Source: Sphaerisporangium corydalis
GTDB lineage: Bacteria > Actinomycetota > Actinomycetes > Streptosporangiales > Streptosporangiaceae
Assembly: GCF_025506355.1 (NCBI RefSeq)
Contig: NZ_JANZYP010000001.1
Span: 155,932 to 219,931, forward strand
Direction: 5' to 3'
DNA: 64,000 nucleotides
Shown: piece after piece, positions 7,751 to 64,000 of the stretch
How positions within the stretch are numbered: the stretch's first letter is position 1
How the letters are laid out: every line of letters begins with the position of its first letter
Program-made: the position numbers and the translations under genes
Notes under the pieces: model-generated
Database searches by the model: none
Told to the model about the DNA's origin: nothing
What the model saw: only the letters and a program-made list of their open reading frames with translations

Positions 7751-8437
7751 CTACCCGGCGCGGGAGGTGATCTCCCGCATGGCGCGTTCGGCGGCCTCGG
7801 CGTCGCCGGTCTGCACGGCCTGGGCCACCTCGGCGTGCAAGCGGATCGCCTCCGGCGCCGGGTCGCGGGCGCGGCCGGTGAGCACCTGGGCGACCACGGT
7901 GGCCAGCGCGCCCAGCATGTCGTTGCCCGAGGCCTCGAGCAGGGTGGTGTGGAACAGGATGTCGGCCCGCAGGTAGGCGTCGCGGTCGCCGGACCTGCCG
8001 TGCACGGCCATCGCCATGACGGCGCCGGTGAGCTCGCCGCACTGCCCGGGGGTGGCGTGGCGGGCCGCCAGCGCGGCGGCCACCGGCTCGACGCCGCCGC
8101 GCAGCTGGTCCAGCGAGCCCAGCAGCCGCGTGCGGCCGGCGCCGTCCAGGCGCCAGCCGATGAGGCGGGGGTCGAACAGGTTCCATCCGGCGCGCGGGGC
8201 GACGGTGACCCCGACGCGGCGGCGGCTGGTCACCAGGCCCATCGACTCAAGGACGCGGACGGCCTCGCGGATCACCGAGCGCGACACCCCGAAGCGCTGT
8301 TCGAGCTGTTCGATGCGCAGCACCTGGCCCGGGGGGAACGCCGCGGAGGTGATCAGGACGCCCAGTTCGTCCAGGACGCTGCCGTGCAGTCCCGCATTGA
8401 TCTGTTCTTTGGCCGCCACAAGGGCCCATACTGCCAC
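7751..8437 (-). CDS. gntR: GntR/FadR-family regulator of the gluconate genes
   Basis: This 228-residue protein has an N-terminal winged helix (LEQRFGVSRSVIREAVRVLESMGLV) and an all-helical FCD ligand domain with the metal-binding His pattern (ILFHTTLLEASGNDML, LHAEVAQAV). It is divergent from gluconokinase and gluconate permease, so it is very likely the repressor that gluconate or 6-phosphogluconate relieves. The start is uncertain: GTG at 8437 is used, GTG at 8419 is equally plausible, and neither has a strong ribosome binding site. Confidence 0.88.
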   Translation of the reverse strand: MAVWALVAAKEQINAGLHGSVLDELGVLITSAAFPPGQVLRIEQLEQRFGVSRSVIREAVRVLESMGLVTSRRRVGVTVAPRAGWNLFDPRLIGWRLDGAGRTRLLGSLDQLRGGVEPVAAALAARHATPGQCGELTGAVMAMAVHGRSGDRDAYLRADILFHTTLLEASGNDMLGALATVVAQVLTGRARDPAPEAIRLHAEVAQAVQTGDAEAAERAMREITSRAG

Positions 8438-56765: not shown

Positions 56766-57803
56766 TCAGCCGGAGCTGTACGCCGCCCGGCGCAGTGTGT
56801 TGTCGAGGTCGAGGCGCGCGGAGTCGGTCAGGTTCCGGTCGTAGGTGACGGTGACCGAAATCCCGTTGTCCCACATGGCGAAGAAGGAACTGAACTGCTG
56901 GGGAGTGGTCACGGTCGAGCTCCAGCTGCCGTGATGGAACAGGTTGCGGCCCGTCGCCGTGCGCACCACGAACATTCCGAGCGAGGCCGTGGGGCTGCTG
57001 GAATTGGCCAGGGCGATGATGAAGTCGTGACCCGCCTGACTGAGCAGCCCGGACCGGGGGTCGTAGGCCCGCGCGAACATGGCGTACTCGACCGCGGAGA
57101 TCTCCCAGCCGCCGAACGCCCCCAGGGCCCGCGTGCCCGGACCGATCCTGGCGTTCGGCGCGCCACGCGGAGCCAGCGCCGTACGCCGGCAGTAGGACTC
57201 GTAGGACTCCTGAGTGATCGTTTGGATGATGTAGCCGAGAATGGCGTAGTTGATGTTGTTGTAGATCTCGCTCACGGGCATGGTGAGGAGATGCTCTGCC
57301 AGCGCACGGCGGATCAGGATCACGTCGGAGGAGTCGGCGTTGGGGACTCCGACCAGTCCTGAGCCCTGGGACGTGTCGATGTAGATCCTGCTCCGGTGCC
57401 GGAGAAGCTGCTCGACGGTGATGTTGGCGACCCCCGGGGACCACGGTCCGGTGGCGTCCAGAAAGCTCGGCGGCAGCGAATAGAGCGCCGTTCTGAACCC
57501 CGCCAGCCGGCGGTCGTCGATGAGCGACAGGAAGCACACCGCGGTGATCGCCTTCGACAGCGAGGCGACGTGAGCGGGCGTTTCCGCCGACATCTGGTTG
57601 TACCCGTAGGAGCCGACGAGCCGGTTGTCGCGCATCACCGCCATGCCCGCGTTGCTGACTCCGTTGACGGCCATCCACGTGCCGAGGGCGGAGTTGATGC
57701 GATCCTGGACGGTGGTCTGGGCCCGGGCGGGACCGGGCGCCCAAACGACAACCATCACCGCCGTCATGGCGACGGTCAGGAGACGCCTAGCCTGAGCGAT
57801 CAT
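56766..57803 (-). CDS. Secreted serine hydrolase (beta-lactamase/DD-peptidase fold)
   Basis: A 345-residue exported enzyme. Signal peptide VAMTAVMVVVWAPGPARAQ; SxxK in HVASLSKAITAVC, YxN-like NNINYAILGYIIQTI. No HGG/KTG box is obvious. GAGAGG precedes the ATG at 57803; an upstream in-frame start at 58001 lies in the regulatory repeats. It lacks typical class A or C residues beyond these, so it may act on wall peptides or esters rather than drugs. Confidence 0.88.
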   Translation of the reverse strand: MIAQARRLLTVAMTAVMVVVWAPGPARAQTTVQDRINSALGTWMAVNGVSNAGMAVMRDNRLVGSYGYNQMSAETPAHVASLSKAITAVCFLSLIDDRRLAGFRTALYSLPPSFLDATGPWSPGVANITVEQLLRHRSRIYIDTSQGSGLVGVPNADSSDVILIRRALAEHLLTMPVSEIYNNINYAILGYIIQTITQESYESYCRRTALAPRGAPNARIGPGTRALGAFGGWEISAVEYAMFARAYDPRSGLLSQAGHDFIIALANSSSPTASLGMFVVRTATGRNLFHHGSWSSTVTTPQQFSSFFAMWDNGISVTVTYDRNLTDSARLDLDNTLRRAAYSSG

Positions 57804-59952: not shown

Positions 59953-59984
59953 TTGACCTTGCCCCTGGGGGAAGGTTCGACGAT
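59953..59984 (+). promoter_or_regulatory. MerR-type promoter with dyad in the spacer
   Basis: TTGACC (59953-59958) and GACGAT (59979-59984) are separated by 20 bp, longer than the usual 17. The spacer holds ACCTTGCCCC-T-GGGGGAAGGT, an almost perfect dyad. These are the hallmarks of MerR-controlled promoters. The -10 lies exactly 7 nt before the ATG at 59992, so the transcript is leaderless. Confidence 0.75.
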
Positions 59985-59991
59985 GCTCCCC

Positions 59992-61416
59992 ATGCACACG
60001 AACGCACTGCGCACCGTCCAGGCCCAGATCCGCGAGCAGGCCGCCGCCTACTGCGAGTCCAGCGGCGTCCCCGGGTACGTCGCCGGTGTCCACCACGCAG
60101 ACGAGCAGATCATCGTCGCCCACGGCACCGCGAACGTGGCCACCGGCGCGCCGATGCTCGAAGACACCGGGTTCCTGTTCGGCTCCGTCACCAAGGTCCT
60201 GACCACCACGCTGGTCCTGCGGCAGGTCGAGCGGGGACTGCTGGACCTCGACACGCCGGTGGTGAGGTACCTTCCCGAGTTCGCCCTCTCCGTGCCGGGC
60301 GCGGCGGACAAGATCCTGGTCCGCCATCTGATCTCCCACACCAACGGCATCGACGCGGACCTGTTCTTCCCCGACGCCAGGGGACGCGACGCCCTCACGA
60401 CCTACGTCGACGGCCTCGCGAGCGGCTGCGGCACCCTGTTCGAGCCCGGCGAGCAGCTCAGCTACTCCAACGGCGGCATGATCGTCGCGGGCCGCCTGCT
60501 GGAGGCGGTAACCGGCGTGCCCTTCCCCGACCTGCTCCAGCGCGACATCTACTCGACCGTCGGAATGCAGGACTCCAGCACCTCGGCCGAGCAGGCCATC
60601 CTGCGCAGCACGGCCGTCGGCCACTTCCCCGATCCCGAGACCATGGCGGCCAGGCCCACCGGCATGTTCATGCTGCCGGAGACCTGGGGCCCGGCCGGTG
60701 GCACGCCGATCGGCACCGTCGCCGACCTGCTGGCCTTCGGCCGCACCCACCTCGCGGGCGGTGTGTCCCCCTCAGGCGCACGCGTCCTGTCGCCGGCGTC
60801 GACCGCGCTGATGCAGCGGACCTCGCACGACATGGCGACCCCGAACGTCCCGCCGATGGGCCTGGGATGGGTGCGGTACCCGTTCGGCGACACGACCGTC
60901 CTGGCCATGTCGGGCGCGTCGCCCGGCGGCGTGGCCATCCTGTGCGTCGTCCCCGGACACGACCTGGTCTTCACCGCCTTCGGTAACACCTCGGGGGCGA
61001 TCATGCTGCACGACCGGATCCTGCGGTGGCTCCTGAGCGAGCATCTCGGCGTCCGGATCCCTGCTTTGATCACCGGCCGGGAGCAGGACGTCGACCTCAC
61101 CCCGTACGCGGGCACCTACCGCTCCGACCAGCTCCGCATCGACGTGAGCATCGCCGACGGCGGGCTTGAGGAGCGCACGACCTACGAACCGGCCGACGAA
61201 TCGCAGGAGCGGATCTTCACCCGGTTCTCCGGCGGCATGACCTCCGCTCCGCCGCGGCGTTACGTGCCGATCCGGCCGGGCCTGTTCGCGCCCGCCGGAT
61301 ATCCGGTGGAGACGTTCGACGGATACCTGCGGCTCCTGCTCGTCTCCTACCACGACGTCCGTGACGGCCAGGCACGCTTCCGCAACGGCGGCGGCCGCCT
61401 GACCCGGCGGGCCTGA
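59992..61416 (+). CDS. Serine hydrolase (beta-lactamase/DD-peptidase fold)
   Basis: A 474-residue protein. SxxK is in GSVTKVLTT, the Tyr motif is LSYSNGGMIVAGRL, and GASPGG (LAMSGASPGGVAI) stands in the HGG position. No signal peptide. An unusual C-terminal domain of about 130 residues follows. The ATG at 59992 suits a leaderless mRNA; GTG 59947 and ATG 59983 are alternatives. The MerR gene just downstream should activate it. Confidence 0.92.
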   Translation: MHTNALRTVQAQIREQAAAYCESSGVPGYVAGVHHADEQIIVAHGTANVATGAPMLEDTGFLFGSVTKVLTTTLVLRQVERGLLDLDTPVVRYLPEFALSVPGAADKILVRHLISHTNGIDADLFFPDARGRDALTTYVDGLASGCGTLFEPGEQLSYSNGGMIVAGRLLEAVTGVPFPDLLQRDIYSTVGMQDSSTSAEQAILRSTAVGHFPDPETMAARPTGMFMLPETWGPAGGTPIGTVADLLAFGRTHLAGGVSPSGARVLSPASTALMQRTSHDMATPNVPPMGLGWVRYPFGDTTVLAMSGASPGGVAILCVVPGHDLVFTAFGNTSGAIMLHDRILRWLLSEHLGVRIPALITGREQDVDLTPYAGTYRSDQLRIDVSIADGGLEERTTYEPADESQERIFTRFSGGMTSAPPRRYVPIRPGLFAPAGYPVETFDGYLRLLLVSYHDVRDGQARFRNGGGRLTRRA

Positions 61417-61460: not shown

Positions 61461-62210
61461 GTGATCACGATTGGCCGGCTCGCGCACTACGCCGGAGTGA
61501 CCAGCAAGACCATCCGCCACTATCACGAGCGCGGTCTGCTCGCCGAGCCCGACCGCGACTCCTCCGGCTACCGGCGCTACACCGCCGCGGACGCCATCGA
61601 GCTCGTCAAGATCAGGACCTTGGCCGACGCGGGCGTGCCGCTGGCCCGTGTCAAAGTCCTTCTCGACGCCGACCCGGACACGCTCGCGGCGGCCATCGCC
61701 GAGATCGACCACGACCTCCAGGACCGCATGGCGCGGCTGGCGCGAACCCGCGACCGCCTCGCCCGGCTGCGCGGCGACGACCGGCTCTTCGTTTCGCCGG
61801 AGGTCGCCGGCCACCTCGACGATCTGCGCGAGCTCGGTGTCAGCGAGCGCCAGGTGCGCATGGAACGCGACGGGTGGATCCTCATGCGAACCGCCTCACC
61901 CGAGGACGCCGCCGTGTGGATCGCCGAAAAACGCGAGTTCATGGCCGATCCCGAGTTCCGTGCCCTCTACCTGGAACATGACGACGCCTACGACTGGCCG
62001 CCCGACGATCCCCGCCTCCCCGCCCTCGCCGACCGCACCAGGGACTGGTTCGCCCGGCACCACAGCGAATCCGAGACCCGCCCCGTCCACGACCCGACCA
62101 TCGCCGACCTGGCCGCGCGGTCCCAGCCCGGAGCCTCGTCCCCGGCCTGGGACCGCCTCGCCCGGCTCATGAAGGGGACCGGCCTCGATCGACCGGACCC
62201 CTCGGCCTGA
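61461..62210 (+). CDS. MerR-family transcriptional regulator
   Basis: A 249-residue activator with the MerR HTH (IGRLAHYAGVTSKTIRHYHERGLLAEPDRDSSGYRRY; the key part is VTSKTIRHYHERGLL), a coiled-coil (LQDRMARLARTRDRLARLRG) and a large effector domain. It lies 44 nt downstream of the serine hydrolase. The GTG at 61461 has GGGAGA 9 nt upstream; the ATG at 61452 is too close to it. Its 3' end overlaps the convergent MFS gene by 44 bp. Confidence 0.92.
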   Translation: MITIGRLAHYAGVTSKTIRHYHERGLLAEPDRDSSGYRRYTAADAIELVKIRTLADAGVPLARVKVLLDADPDTLAAAIAEIDHDLQDRMARLARTRDRLARLRGDDRLFVSPEVAGHLDDLRELGVSERQVRMERDGWILMRTASPEDAAVWIAEKREFMADPEFRALYLEHDDAYDWPPDDPRLPALADRTRDWFARHHSESETRPVHDPTIADLAARSQPGASSPAWDRLARLMKGTGLDRPDPSA

Positions 62211-63438
62211 TCGAATTCCGTTCGGGCCAGGAGGGTGAGAAGCGCTCCCGCCGGAACGCGGCGGCCAGCGGGAGACCGAAGGCGATGCCGGCGGCGCCGA
62301 GCGTCGCGATGGCCGTCGCCGGGGTCAGGAGCTCGGCGAGCGCCCCGCCGAAGATCATCCCGGCGCCCTGCGCGGCGATCAGGATGGATCCGGCCAGACC
62401 GACCGCTCGCCCGCGCATTCCCTCGGGCACGATGCGGACGAACTCCGCGTTGATCGCGACCTGGTACGCCATGAGCGCGCCGACCAGCCCCAGCAGCACG
62501 AACGAGAGGACCAGGCCCGGTCGCAGCAGGAAGCCGAGCAGCGGGACGCTGGCGAGCACGGCGAGCGGGCCGCTGTGCCGCAGCCGGGCCTCGGGGCCGG
62601 CCAGGCGGCAGAACACCAGGATGCCGATCACGCTGCCGGCCGGGATGGCCGTCATGAGCAGGCCCGCGGCGGCCGGCCCGGCGCCGAGCCCCGCGGCGTA
62701 CGGGACCGCGAGCGCCTCCGGCGCCAGGTAGAACCCGGCGAGCAGGGCGAGCCCGAGCAGGCTGCGCAGCCGAGGGTCTCCGAGGATCAGCCCGGCGGCG
62801 CCCCCCGACCAGGGCCTCGGCCCCGCGCCGTCCGGTGGCGGGGCGGGGCGCCGGCGCAGGCCGGCGCCCACGATCAGCGCCGAGGCCAGGAACGTGCCGG
62901 TGTCCACCACCAGGGCGATGTGCGGTCCCGTCAGGGCGATGGCGACCCCACCGGCCCCGAAACCGGCCAGGTTGGTGACCTGGCTGGTCATGTGACCGAA
63001 CGCCACGCCGGTGACGTAGCGATCCGCCGGCAGCAGGTCCACCGTCACGGCCATGCGGGCGGCCCTCGCCGGCGCCTCCAGCAGCTGCACGACGAACAGC
63101 AGCACGCACAGCGGCGCCAGCGGCATGCCGGGAACGGCCATCGCGGCGACGAGCACGGCCCGGCCCAGATCACACCACACCATGACCTCGCGGCGCGGAT
63201 GACGGTCGGCCAGGCCCGACAGCAGCGGGCCGCCCAGCAGGGCGGGCAGGTAGGTGAGCGCGTAGGTGAGGGCCGTCAGGGCCGCCGACGCGGTCCGGGC
63301 GTAGACGAGCACGGCCAGCGCCACCCGGGCGAGCTGGTCACCGGTCTCGGAGAGCGCCTGGGAGATCCACAGCATCCGGTACTCGCGGACCGCAAGTACC
63401 CCGAGAAACCCCCGCCGATAACGGGCCGGCACACGCAT
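62167..63438 (-). CDS. MFS exporter (DHA1/Bcr-like, MFS_3 type)
   Basis: A 423-residue transporter with 12 hydrophobic helices; LRRRPAPPPDGAGPRPW marks the central loop. The early motif LWISQALSETGDQLARVALAVLVYARTAS is typical of the MFS_3 drug and siderophore exporters. It is divergent from the peptide/radical-SAM genes at the right edge and could export their product. Its 3' end overlaps the MerR gene. Confidence 0.9.
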   Translation of the reverse strand: MRVPARYRRGFLGVLAVREYRMLWISQALSETGDQLARVALAVLVYARTASAALTALTYALTYLPALLGGPLLSGLADRHPRREVMVWCDLGRAVLVAAMAVPGMPLAPLCVLLFVVQLLEAPARAARMAVTVDLLPADRYVTGVAFGHMTSQVTNLAGFGAGGVAIALTGPHIALVVDTGTFLASALIVGAGLRRRPAPPPDGAGPRPWSGGAAGLILGDPRLRSLLGLALLAGFYLAPEALAVPYAAGLGAGPAAAGLLMTAIPAGSVIGILVFCRLAGPEARLRHSGPLAVLASVPLLGFLLRPGLVLSFVLLGLVGALMAYQVAINAEFVRIVPEGMRGRAVGLAGSILIAAQGAGMIFGGALAELLTPATAIATLGAAGIAFGLPLAAAFRRERFSPSWPERNSIRPRGPVDRGRSPS

Positions 63439-63506: not shown

Positions 63507-63536
63507 TGGACGACATCAGTTAACCAGCTGTATTCT
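63507..63536 (+). promoter_or_regulatory. Promoter of the peptide/radical SAM operon
   Basis: TGGACG (63507-63512) and TATTCT (63531-63536) are spaced 18 bp. They end 8 nt before the AAAGGAGG of the peptide gene, giving a very short 5' leader. This AT-rich stretch stands out from its surroundings. Confidence 0.55.
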
Positions 63537-63563
63537 CACCTTGGAAAGGAGGGGATCAAATTG

Positions 63564-63644
63564 ATGAAAACGACGATTCTGCACAGCAACATTCTCGGTG
63601 GCGTCACCTGGAACCGGAACACCTCGGCCACCAGGTCTTTGTGA
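63564..63644 (+). CDS. Putative 26-residue RiPP precursor peptide
   Basis: A short frame beginning MKTTILHSNILGG with a C-terminal half rich in Thr, Asn and Arg (one Trp at 16). AAAGGAGGGG at 63545-63554 is the best ribosome binding site in the window, with 9 nt to the ATG. A hairpin (TCGGCGG/CCGCCGA, 63659-63676) follows its stop, as between precursor and enzyme genes in RiPP clusters. I know of no match; its role is inferred from the radical SAM gene 88 nt downstream. Confidence 0.6.
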   Translation: MKTTILHSNILGGVTWNRNTSATRSL

Positions 63645-63658
63645 CGTAAGTACGCCGA

Positions 63659-63676
63659 TCGGCGGTGAGCCGCCGA
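63659..63676 (+). terminator. Small hairpin between the peptide and radical SAM genes
   Basis: A 7-bp stem TCGGCGG/CCGCCGA with loop TGAG, no T tract. It could attenuate transcription into the enzyme gene or stabilise the peptide mRNA. Confidence 0.45.
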
Positions 63677-63732
63677 AACTCCCGCCGCCCCCCGCGGCGT
63701 ACCGGACCGACGGCTCACACCCGGGAGCGATA

Positions 63733-64000
63733 ATGCGGTTGATCCTAGCCTCGATGCCCTGGGCCGACCTGCACAGTCCCTCGCCCGCCATGGGAATCCT
63801 CGGCGCCAGGACACGCGCGGCCCGCCCGGGCACCGAGGTCACCGAATATCACGGCGCCATCCGCTGGGCCGAATATCTGCTCGCCGCCACCAATGGCGAA
63901 CTCACGCCGGAGGATTACGCGCGCATCGCGGACGACGCGCCGAGCGGACTCGGTGAATGGATCTTCGCGGGCGCTCTGAACGGCCGGCCTGAATGGCGGC
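63733..64000 (+). CDS. RiPP maturation radical SAM enzyme, N-terminus only
   Basis: The first 89 codons before the right edge. The N-terminal MRLILASMPWADLHSPS and LGEWIFAGAL are typical of the B12-binding-type RiPP maturation radical SAM C-methyltransferase family (first domain begins with a MPWAxLxxPS strand, then EWxFA). The CxxxCxxC motif would lie beyond the window. GGGAG is 8 nt before the ATG. Its substrate is presumably the short peptide upstream. Confidence 0.75.
   Translation, partial: MRLILASMPWADLHSPSPAMGILGARTRAARPGTEVTEYHGAIRWAEYLLAATNGELTPEDYARIADDAPSGLGEWIFAGALNGRPEWR

Follow-up and report, generated by a model that had tools for sequence, protein, structure and literature searches.

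A 26-residue frame beside a cobalamin-binding radical SAM enzyme and a DUF5825 protein in Sphaerisporangium corydalis: a probable minimal, divergent clavusporin-type RiPP locus

Can a peptide of only 26 residues be the substrate of the cobalamin-binding radical SAM enzyme that is encoded downstream of it? The question arises at the right edge of a 64,000-nucleotide stretch (contig positions 155932-219931) of the Sphaerisporangium corydalis genome (9.48 Mb in 162 contigs), referred to here as the window. A forward-strand frame of 26 codons, MKTTILHSNILGGVTWNRNTSATRSL, runs there from an ATG to a TGA stop (63564..63644), and a preliminary description of the same DNA had proposed it as the precursor of a small RiPP. 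The frame and its ribosome binding site are as described: the site, AAAGGAGGGG (63545..63554, forward strand), shares a seven-letter match with AAGGAGGTGA and ends 9 nt before the ATG and 6 nt before an in-frame TTG at 63561, an alternative start that would yield 27 residues. GC contents at the three codon positions of the frame are 0.31/0.54/0.81. The 88 nt that had been counted from its stop to the ATG of the enzyme gene at 63733 are likewise exact.

Only the first 268 bases of the enzyme gene lie within the window (63733..64000, forward strand). Followed across the edge on the same contig, in coordinates (L007) that equal the window position minus 60000, the gene spans L007:3733-5601, ends at the equivalent of window position 65601 and encodes a complete protein of 622 aa. 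Residues 4-605 match TIGR03975, the profile for RiPP maturation radical SAM C-methyltransferases, with 570.3 bits (4.8e-171) against a curated cut-off of 281.85, which supports, as far as sequence goes, the assignment by family to the cobalamin-type enzymes of this kind that had been proposed from the N-terminus. The extension to the right also brought the anticipated B12-binding domain (PF02310), next to a Radical_SAM domain (PF04055), both over cut-off, and a further gene. The cysteine motif, in contrast, is Cx7CxxC (CWWGERHHCTFC, at residue 271) and not the CxxxCxxC that had been anticipated. It is present in 88 of 89 rows, a count that includes the S. corydalis enzyme and duplicate places, and it recurs as Cx7Cx2C in PoyC, the B12 radical SAM C-methyltransferase of the polytheonamides, for which methylation of beta carbons is described (PMC11285071). 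A sequence search of the PDB returned the methyltransferase TokK (2.7e-9) as the sole match at E<=0.001, and the genome itself holds a single match to an enzyme of the TIGR03975 type. The substrate of PoyC is a long proteusin precursor, unlike the 26-mer, and we know of no DUF5825 partner for it.

The further gene, joined to the stop of the enzyme gene by an ATGA overlap, encodes a DUF5825 protein of 171 aa (L007:5598-6113, forward strand; PF19142, 1.6e-24), present in one copy only in the genome. DUF5825 adjoins the enzyme in 72 of 87 loci (tblastn, 1e-6), some of which are one place fetched twice. Eleven of the 15 loci without a DUF5825 match have enzymes less than 40% identical to that of S. 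corydalis, and one miss, L054, gains a match once its flanks are extended (this longer version being L074). A homologous pairing of a B12 radical SAM enzyme with a DUF5825 protein has been characterised in the biosynthesis of the clavusporins (mpc cluster), where it is reported to carry out C-methylations (PMC12257519); the two enzymes are therefore of a known kind, and the locus, previously put forward as possibly undescribed, is not wholly so, while its nature as a RiPP locus stays the most likely one. The DUF5825 protein may plausibly bind the leader. In the AlphaFold2 model (32 sequences, initial Met absent; pLDDT 94.8, pTM 0.89), around 60 residues match winged-helix regulators with probabilities of up to 0.93 among the best 50 of 744 structural matches. 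The more specific idea of a PqqD-like RRE was not borne out: the model has no match in the PDB at E<=0.001, and no PqqD is named among the best 50 of the 744.

We consider it likely that these genes form a minimal, divergent clavusporin-type RiPP locus, and the 26-residue frame has a good chance, judged from sequence features, of being the precursor that the B12/radical SAM enzyme acts upon. The clavusporins themselves are reportedly peptide surfactants, hydrophobic and C-methylated, that help Streptomyces to develop. The S. corydalis peptide differs from such precursors in its 26 residues, its lack of proline and its hydrophilic second half.

Short frames recur in the same slot beside related enzymes, so that the 26-mer, earlier judged very short for a precursor, has company at 18, 24 and 27-30 residues. 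In a tree of 63 rows, hand-chosen from the loci available, the S. corydalis enzyme groups with those of L062, L066 and L068 (support 100/96), and it is nested with these sisters in a clade of 27 rows (support 100/99), a placement made unsure by the long end branch on which it sits. All three sister loci have a frame in the slot. L062 carries MKIKKTAIRSQSQKAPRIYTWQKHSASSK (29 aa, ATG), whose stop lies 88 nt before the enzyme gene, the same distance as in S. corydalis; L066 carries MIIKKVAIRSQSVSAPKMGWQKKN (24 aa, GTG start, weak ribosome site), 92 nt before the enzyme gene; and in L068 the frame comprises 47 residues, follows a strong ribosome site and stops 144 nt before the enzyme gene, with the DUF5825 gene of that locus lying upstream. 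More distant loci show further types. Among Streptomyces-like members of the 27-row clade, a conserved frame (e.g., MEIKKVVVREDQQSTTRRPAILEKRPTR) that starts with (E)I(K/R)Kxx(V/I)(R/K)(E/D) occurs in 16 of 17 new loci, although in L080, L082, L084 and L088 what was called is a longer frame (57-86 codons) that includes it; elsewhere the calls are 27-48 residues long, and the exception, L076, has an 85-residue repeat frame. A frame with the same start is found in L069 and L070. Eight loci whose enzymes are 42-45% identical to that of S. corydalis have precursors with leaders such as MQKDIIHNDPLAGDEENRKPSVGITVTVPFRN. Two of the eight were examined, L095 and L096, and both have a Peptidase_S9 gene upstream, accompanied by an MFS gene in L096. 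This peptidase fits the role of the prolyl oligopeptidase MpcP, which is reported to cleave off the clavusporin leader (PMC12951456), and these loci are therefore called clavusporin-like, a name that refers to gene content only. Their precursors comprise 31-40 residues, mostly with RKP before the core. On another branch, an 18-residue frame, MKRK(S/A/V)IRKQQ(T/G)ASQRHEF, precedes the enzyme gene in five out of five examined loci, of which L026 and L060 were found first and L097-L099 were then picked as likely members; it is among the shortest precursor candidates seen.

Several loci of the collection stand out for other reasons. In L067 (G143:C32), a precursor-like frame of 65 residues, located at -276 to -79 relative to the enzyme gene and preceded by a strong ribosome site, contains six units of the PMIRSAAT type; its neighbours encode the B12 radical SAM enzyme, a DUF5825 protein and an MFS transporter, together with a P450-like protein and a possible Asp/Asn hydroxylase (by sequence reading and clustering). 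The Amycolatopsis loci L003, L004 and L005 have frames of 58, 74 and 74 residues, respectively, 38 nt before the enzyme gene, with ALTVT repeats and a common GRGVTMYNEAG near the C-terminus. In L071 (the same as L002, Actinoallomurus iriomotensis), an GAAGGAGGTGC site is followed by the five-codon frame MRYVH, at -96 to -79 before the enzyme gene at 8001. This frame stands directly after a P450 gene and directly before the genes for the B12 radical SAM enzyme and DUF5825; genes for an O-methyltransferase and an M28 peptidase are close by. MRYVH resembles a biarylitide-type pentapeptide, and the locus looks like one in which such a pentapeptide is coupled to C-methylation. Biarylitides resemble the S. 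corydalis case in their very small precursors and minimal leader requirement (PMC12951456) and differ from it in being cross-linked by a P450, of which the 12 scanned genes around the S. corydalis locus have none.

The 26-mer had been described as having no recognisable leader and as being mostly core. This no longer holds in full: residues 2-13 align without gaps with the leader of the precursors from clavusporin-like loci, so the core may be the second half only, although the match is modest. Of eleven peptides compared with the 26-mer, that of L045 was equalled by none of 5000 shuffles in global alignment and by none in local alignment, followed by those of L062 (global p 0.007, local 0.021) and L044 (global p 0.010, local 0.041), and the other eight did not stand out (global p from 0.19 to 0.87). 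A matrix built from seven leaders of the clavusporin-like loci, a family picked only after this eleven-peptide comparison, ranks the 26-mer first among the 105 short frames (15-60 codons) that follow a ribosome site within 80 kb of sequence. It also ranks first among 622 when no such site is demanded, with a score of 6.97 versus 6.93 for the second. Shuffled versions of the 26-mer score equally high in 77 of 20000 cases. Its likeness to a leader of the MQKDIIHNDPL type is nonetheless low in absolute terms, as unrelated-looking frames reach 6.9-11.6 with this matrix in the scanned loci versus 7.0 for the 26-mer, in a scan that made no ribosome-site demand and omitted 14 loci, mostly second copies of places already scanned. 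With a matrix from the nearer IKKxxVRE frames, the 26-mer comes only tenth of 105, and the IKKxxVRE motif is therefore not claimed for it. Residues 1-13 would form a leader-like part and the core would lie within residues 14-26.

In the alignments, W-Q-K in the peptides of L062 and L066 aligns with W-N-R in the 26-mer, the whole L066 match (p 0.19) being not above chance, and such a shared tryptophan would suit an enzyme that runs a different B12/radical SAM reaction, for instance a cross-link involving this residue. PbsB, a B12 radical SAM enzyme, is indeed reported to cross-link aromatic residues (PMC12257519). We nevertheless hold such a reaction to be decidedly improbable, since the TIGR03975 score lies far over its cut-off and an enzyme of this type with DUF5825 is reported to C-methylate (PMC12257519). 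Biphenomycin-like YHxYxY clusters share with S. corydalis the combination of a B12 radical SAM gene, there a second one, and a DUF5825 gene (PMC12257519), but they rely on an MNIO and its partner for aromatic cross-linking, and none of the 12 genes scanned with Pfam around the S. corydalis locus matches an MNIO.

How often would a frame like the 26-mer arise by chance? Under a rule that asks for a frame of 15-70 codons that follows a ribosome site and ends at most 150 nt upstream of a gene, 28 of 161 other genes in the studied loci are preceded by a comparable frame, and 20 of 107 are when the control is restricted to gaps of 150 nt or more; a ribosome site and the right position do not, therefore, decide the matter by themselves. 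The same rule finds such a frame before 16 of the 27 clade enzymes, skipping L062 for its weak ribosome site and scoring L066 via a frame other than the 24-mer. These chance frames speak for an alternative that we deem unlikely, namely that the enzyme and DUF5825 do act together as a RiPP pair, while the 26-codon frame is a regulatory peptide or a chance frame and the true precursor is encoded elsewhere. The same can be said of L063, L064 and L065, which have the enzyme, DUF5825 and a divergent MFS gene but lack a convincing precursor candidate in the slot and whose substrate may lie elsewhere, and of the absence of any homologue of the 26-mer in 342 genomes of the order. Against an accidental frame, however, count the seven-letter ribosome site, the ATG start and the codon bias, the in-register match to the leaders of relatives and the occupied slots of the three sister loci. 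The preliminary description had named a lack of conservation of the frame beside homologous enzymes as grounds for refutation, and this applies in part, in that the slot and the size class are conserved and the peptide is not. The best other match in the 342 genomes has an E-value of 0.036 and a stop inside, and three matches of 67% over 18 residues were rejected because of internal stops, the one in G247 lying, by sequence reading, on the antisense strand of a methyltransferase gene. When all frames of 37 loci, including that of S. corydalis, were scanned, nothing scored above 44 outside the latter (self-score 134).

The spacer between the two genes (63645..63732, forward strand) contains a strong stem-loop. 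The hairpin that had been noted after the stop is real, as the fold of 63646-63733 beats those of 197 among 200 shuffled sequences (z -2.4; refolded one base shifted, z -2.2), and the spacers of two sister loci fold similarly (z -3.35 in L062 and -2.60 in L066). A scan found no terminator-like site. The stem-loop suggests partial attenuation, by which more precursor than enzyme would be made. The good promoter that had been credited to the frame was not recovered: a scan confined to sigma-70-type sites gave 0 consensus sites versus 0.2 expected. The missing consensus promoter would be in keeping with a decayed or silent remnant, as would the patchy distribution of the enzyme in the genus, where, at 1e-60, five of 11 members including S. 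corydalis have a match and six do not. A remnant is very improbable all the same, given that the enzyme and DUF5825 frames are intact, their motifs are in place and the two share an ATGA overlap. At wider ranks, and again counting the S. corydalis genome, the enzyme has matches in 54 of 297 family genomes (1e-20), 30 of 345 of the order (1e-140) and 12 of 394 of the class (1e-130); one class-mate genus, which we take to be Streptomyces-like, has them in 18 of 392 (1e-175).

Export and leader removal were considered among the neighbouring genes. The divergent MFS gene that had been suggested as an exporter is present (62167..63438, reverse strand; 423 aa, PF07690, 6.7e-23), and it may belong to the locus in that role by its position and family. 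The link is weak, since the transporter is only 27-31% identical to the MFS proteins encoded beside L063-L065 and up to 57% identical to unlinked ones, and as a conserved part of the locus it was rejected on these figures. Loose clustering puts an MFS gene in 10 of 16 loci, although two of these 16 represent a single place, and the S. corydalis transporter is matched in 57 of 61 genomes of the family at 1e-40. Further upstream genes encode a MerR regulator, a beta-lactamase-family serine hydrolase and a periplasmic-binding protein; downstream follow an alpha/beta hydrolase, an inositol-phosphatase-type protein, a carboxymuconolactone decarboxylase and a TetR regulator. Near the locus lie two distinct genes for serine hydrolases of the beta-lactamase family (PF00144), at 56766-57803 (reverse strand) and 59983-61416 (forward strand). 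Unlike the two clavusporin-like loci examined, the S. corydalis locus has no Peptidase_S9 gene (PF00326) among the 12 called genes of at least 60 residues between window position 56766 and L007:12057, and neither a prolyl oligopeptidase among these genes nor a proline before the core in the 26-mer was found. The alpha/beta hydrolase was rejected as a conserved maturation protease, its sole match elsewhere being a weak one, to a gene of L068.

Taken as a clavusporin-type locus, the genes would work as follows. The 26-mer would be bound through its N-terminal half, KTTILHSNILGG, as the recognition part, the C-terminal half, VTWNRNTSATRSL, would carry the modified residues, and DUF5825 would assist the enzyme, perhaps in presentation of the peptide. 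At the [4Fe-4S] cluster of the enzyme, a 5'-deoxyadenosyl radical would be generated, and this radical would abstract hydrogen from a side-chain carbon in VTWNRNTSATRSL that is not activated, most likely the beta carbon of Val, Thr or Ile. Methylcobalamin would then donate a methyl group to this carbon and be remade from a second SAM, in line with the radical hydrogen abstraction and methylcobalamin chemistry described for class B enzymes (PMC11285071). The stem-loop would hold expression of the enzyme under that of the precursor. Proteolysis and export would fall to other proteins, possibly the downstream alpha/beta hydrolase and the divergent MFS transporter.

Whereas enzyme pairs of this kind were known before, what appears new from the sequences is a divergent, very short precursor that lacks the usual protease signal. 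We found no literature on such mini-precursors, which the clavusporin survey may already cover. Tentatively, and with more doubt than confidence, the pair could be viewed as a portable C-methylation module that requires hardly any leader and has been adopted for unrelated mini-precursors, i.e., the 18-mers, the 26-mer, the tandem-repeat cores and the biarylitide-type pentapeptide; the product of the 26-mer would then be hydrophilic, C-methylated and of a class other than the surfactant clavusporins. C-methylation of unactivated carbons is chemically hard, and a pair that acts on substrates of 18-30 residues would, if this is true, be a handy tool. The candidate series beside this one enzyme family (18, 24, 26, 27-30, 40 and 47 residues, and repeats) would offer a set for questions on the minimal leader and the site of methylation.
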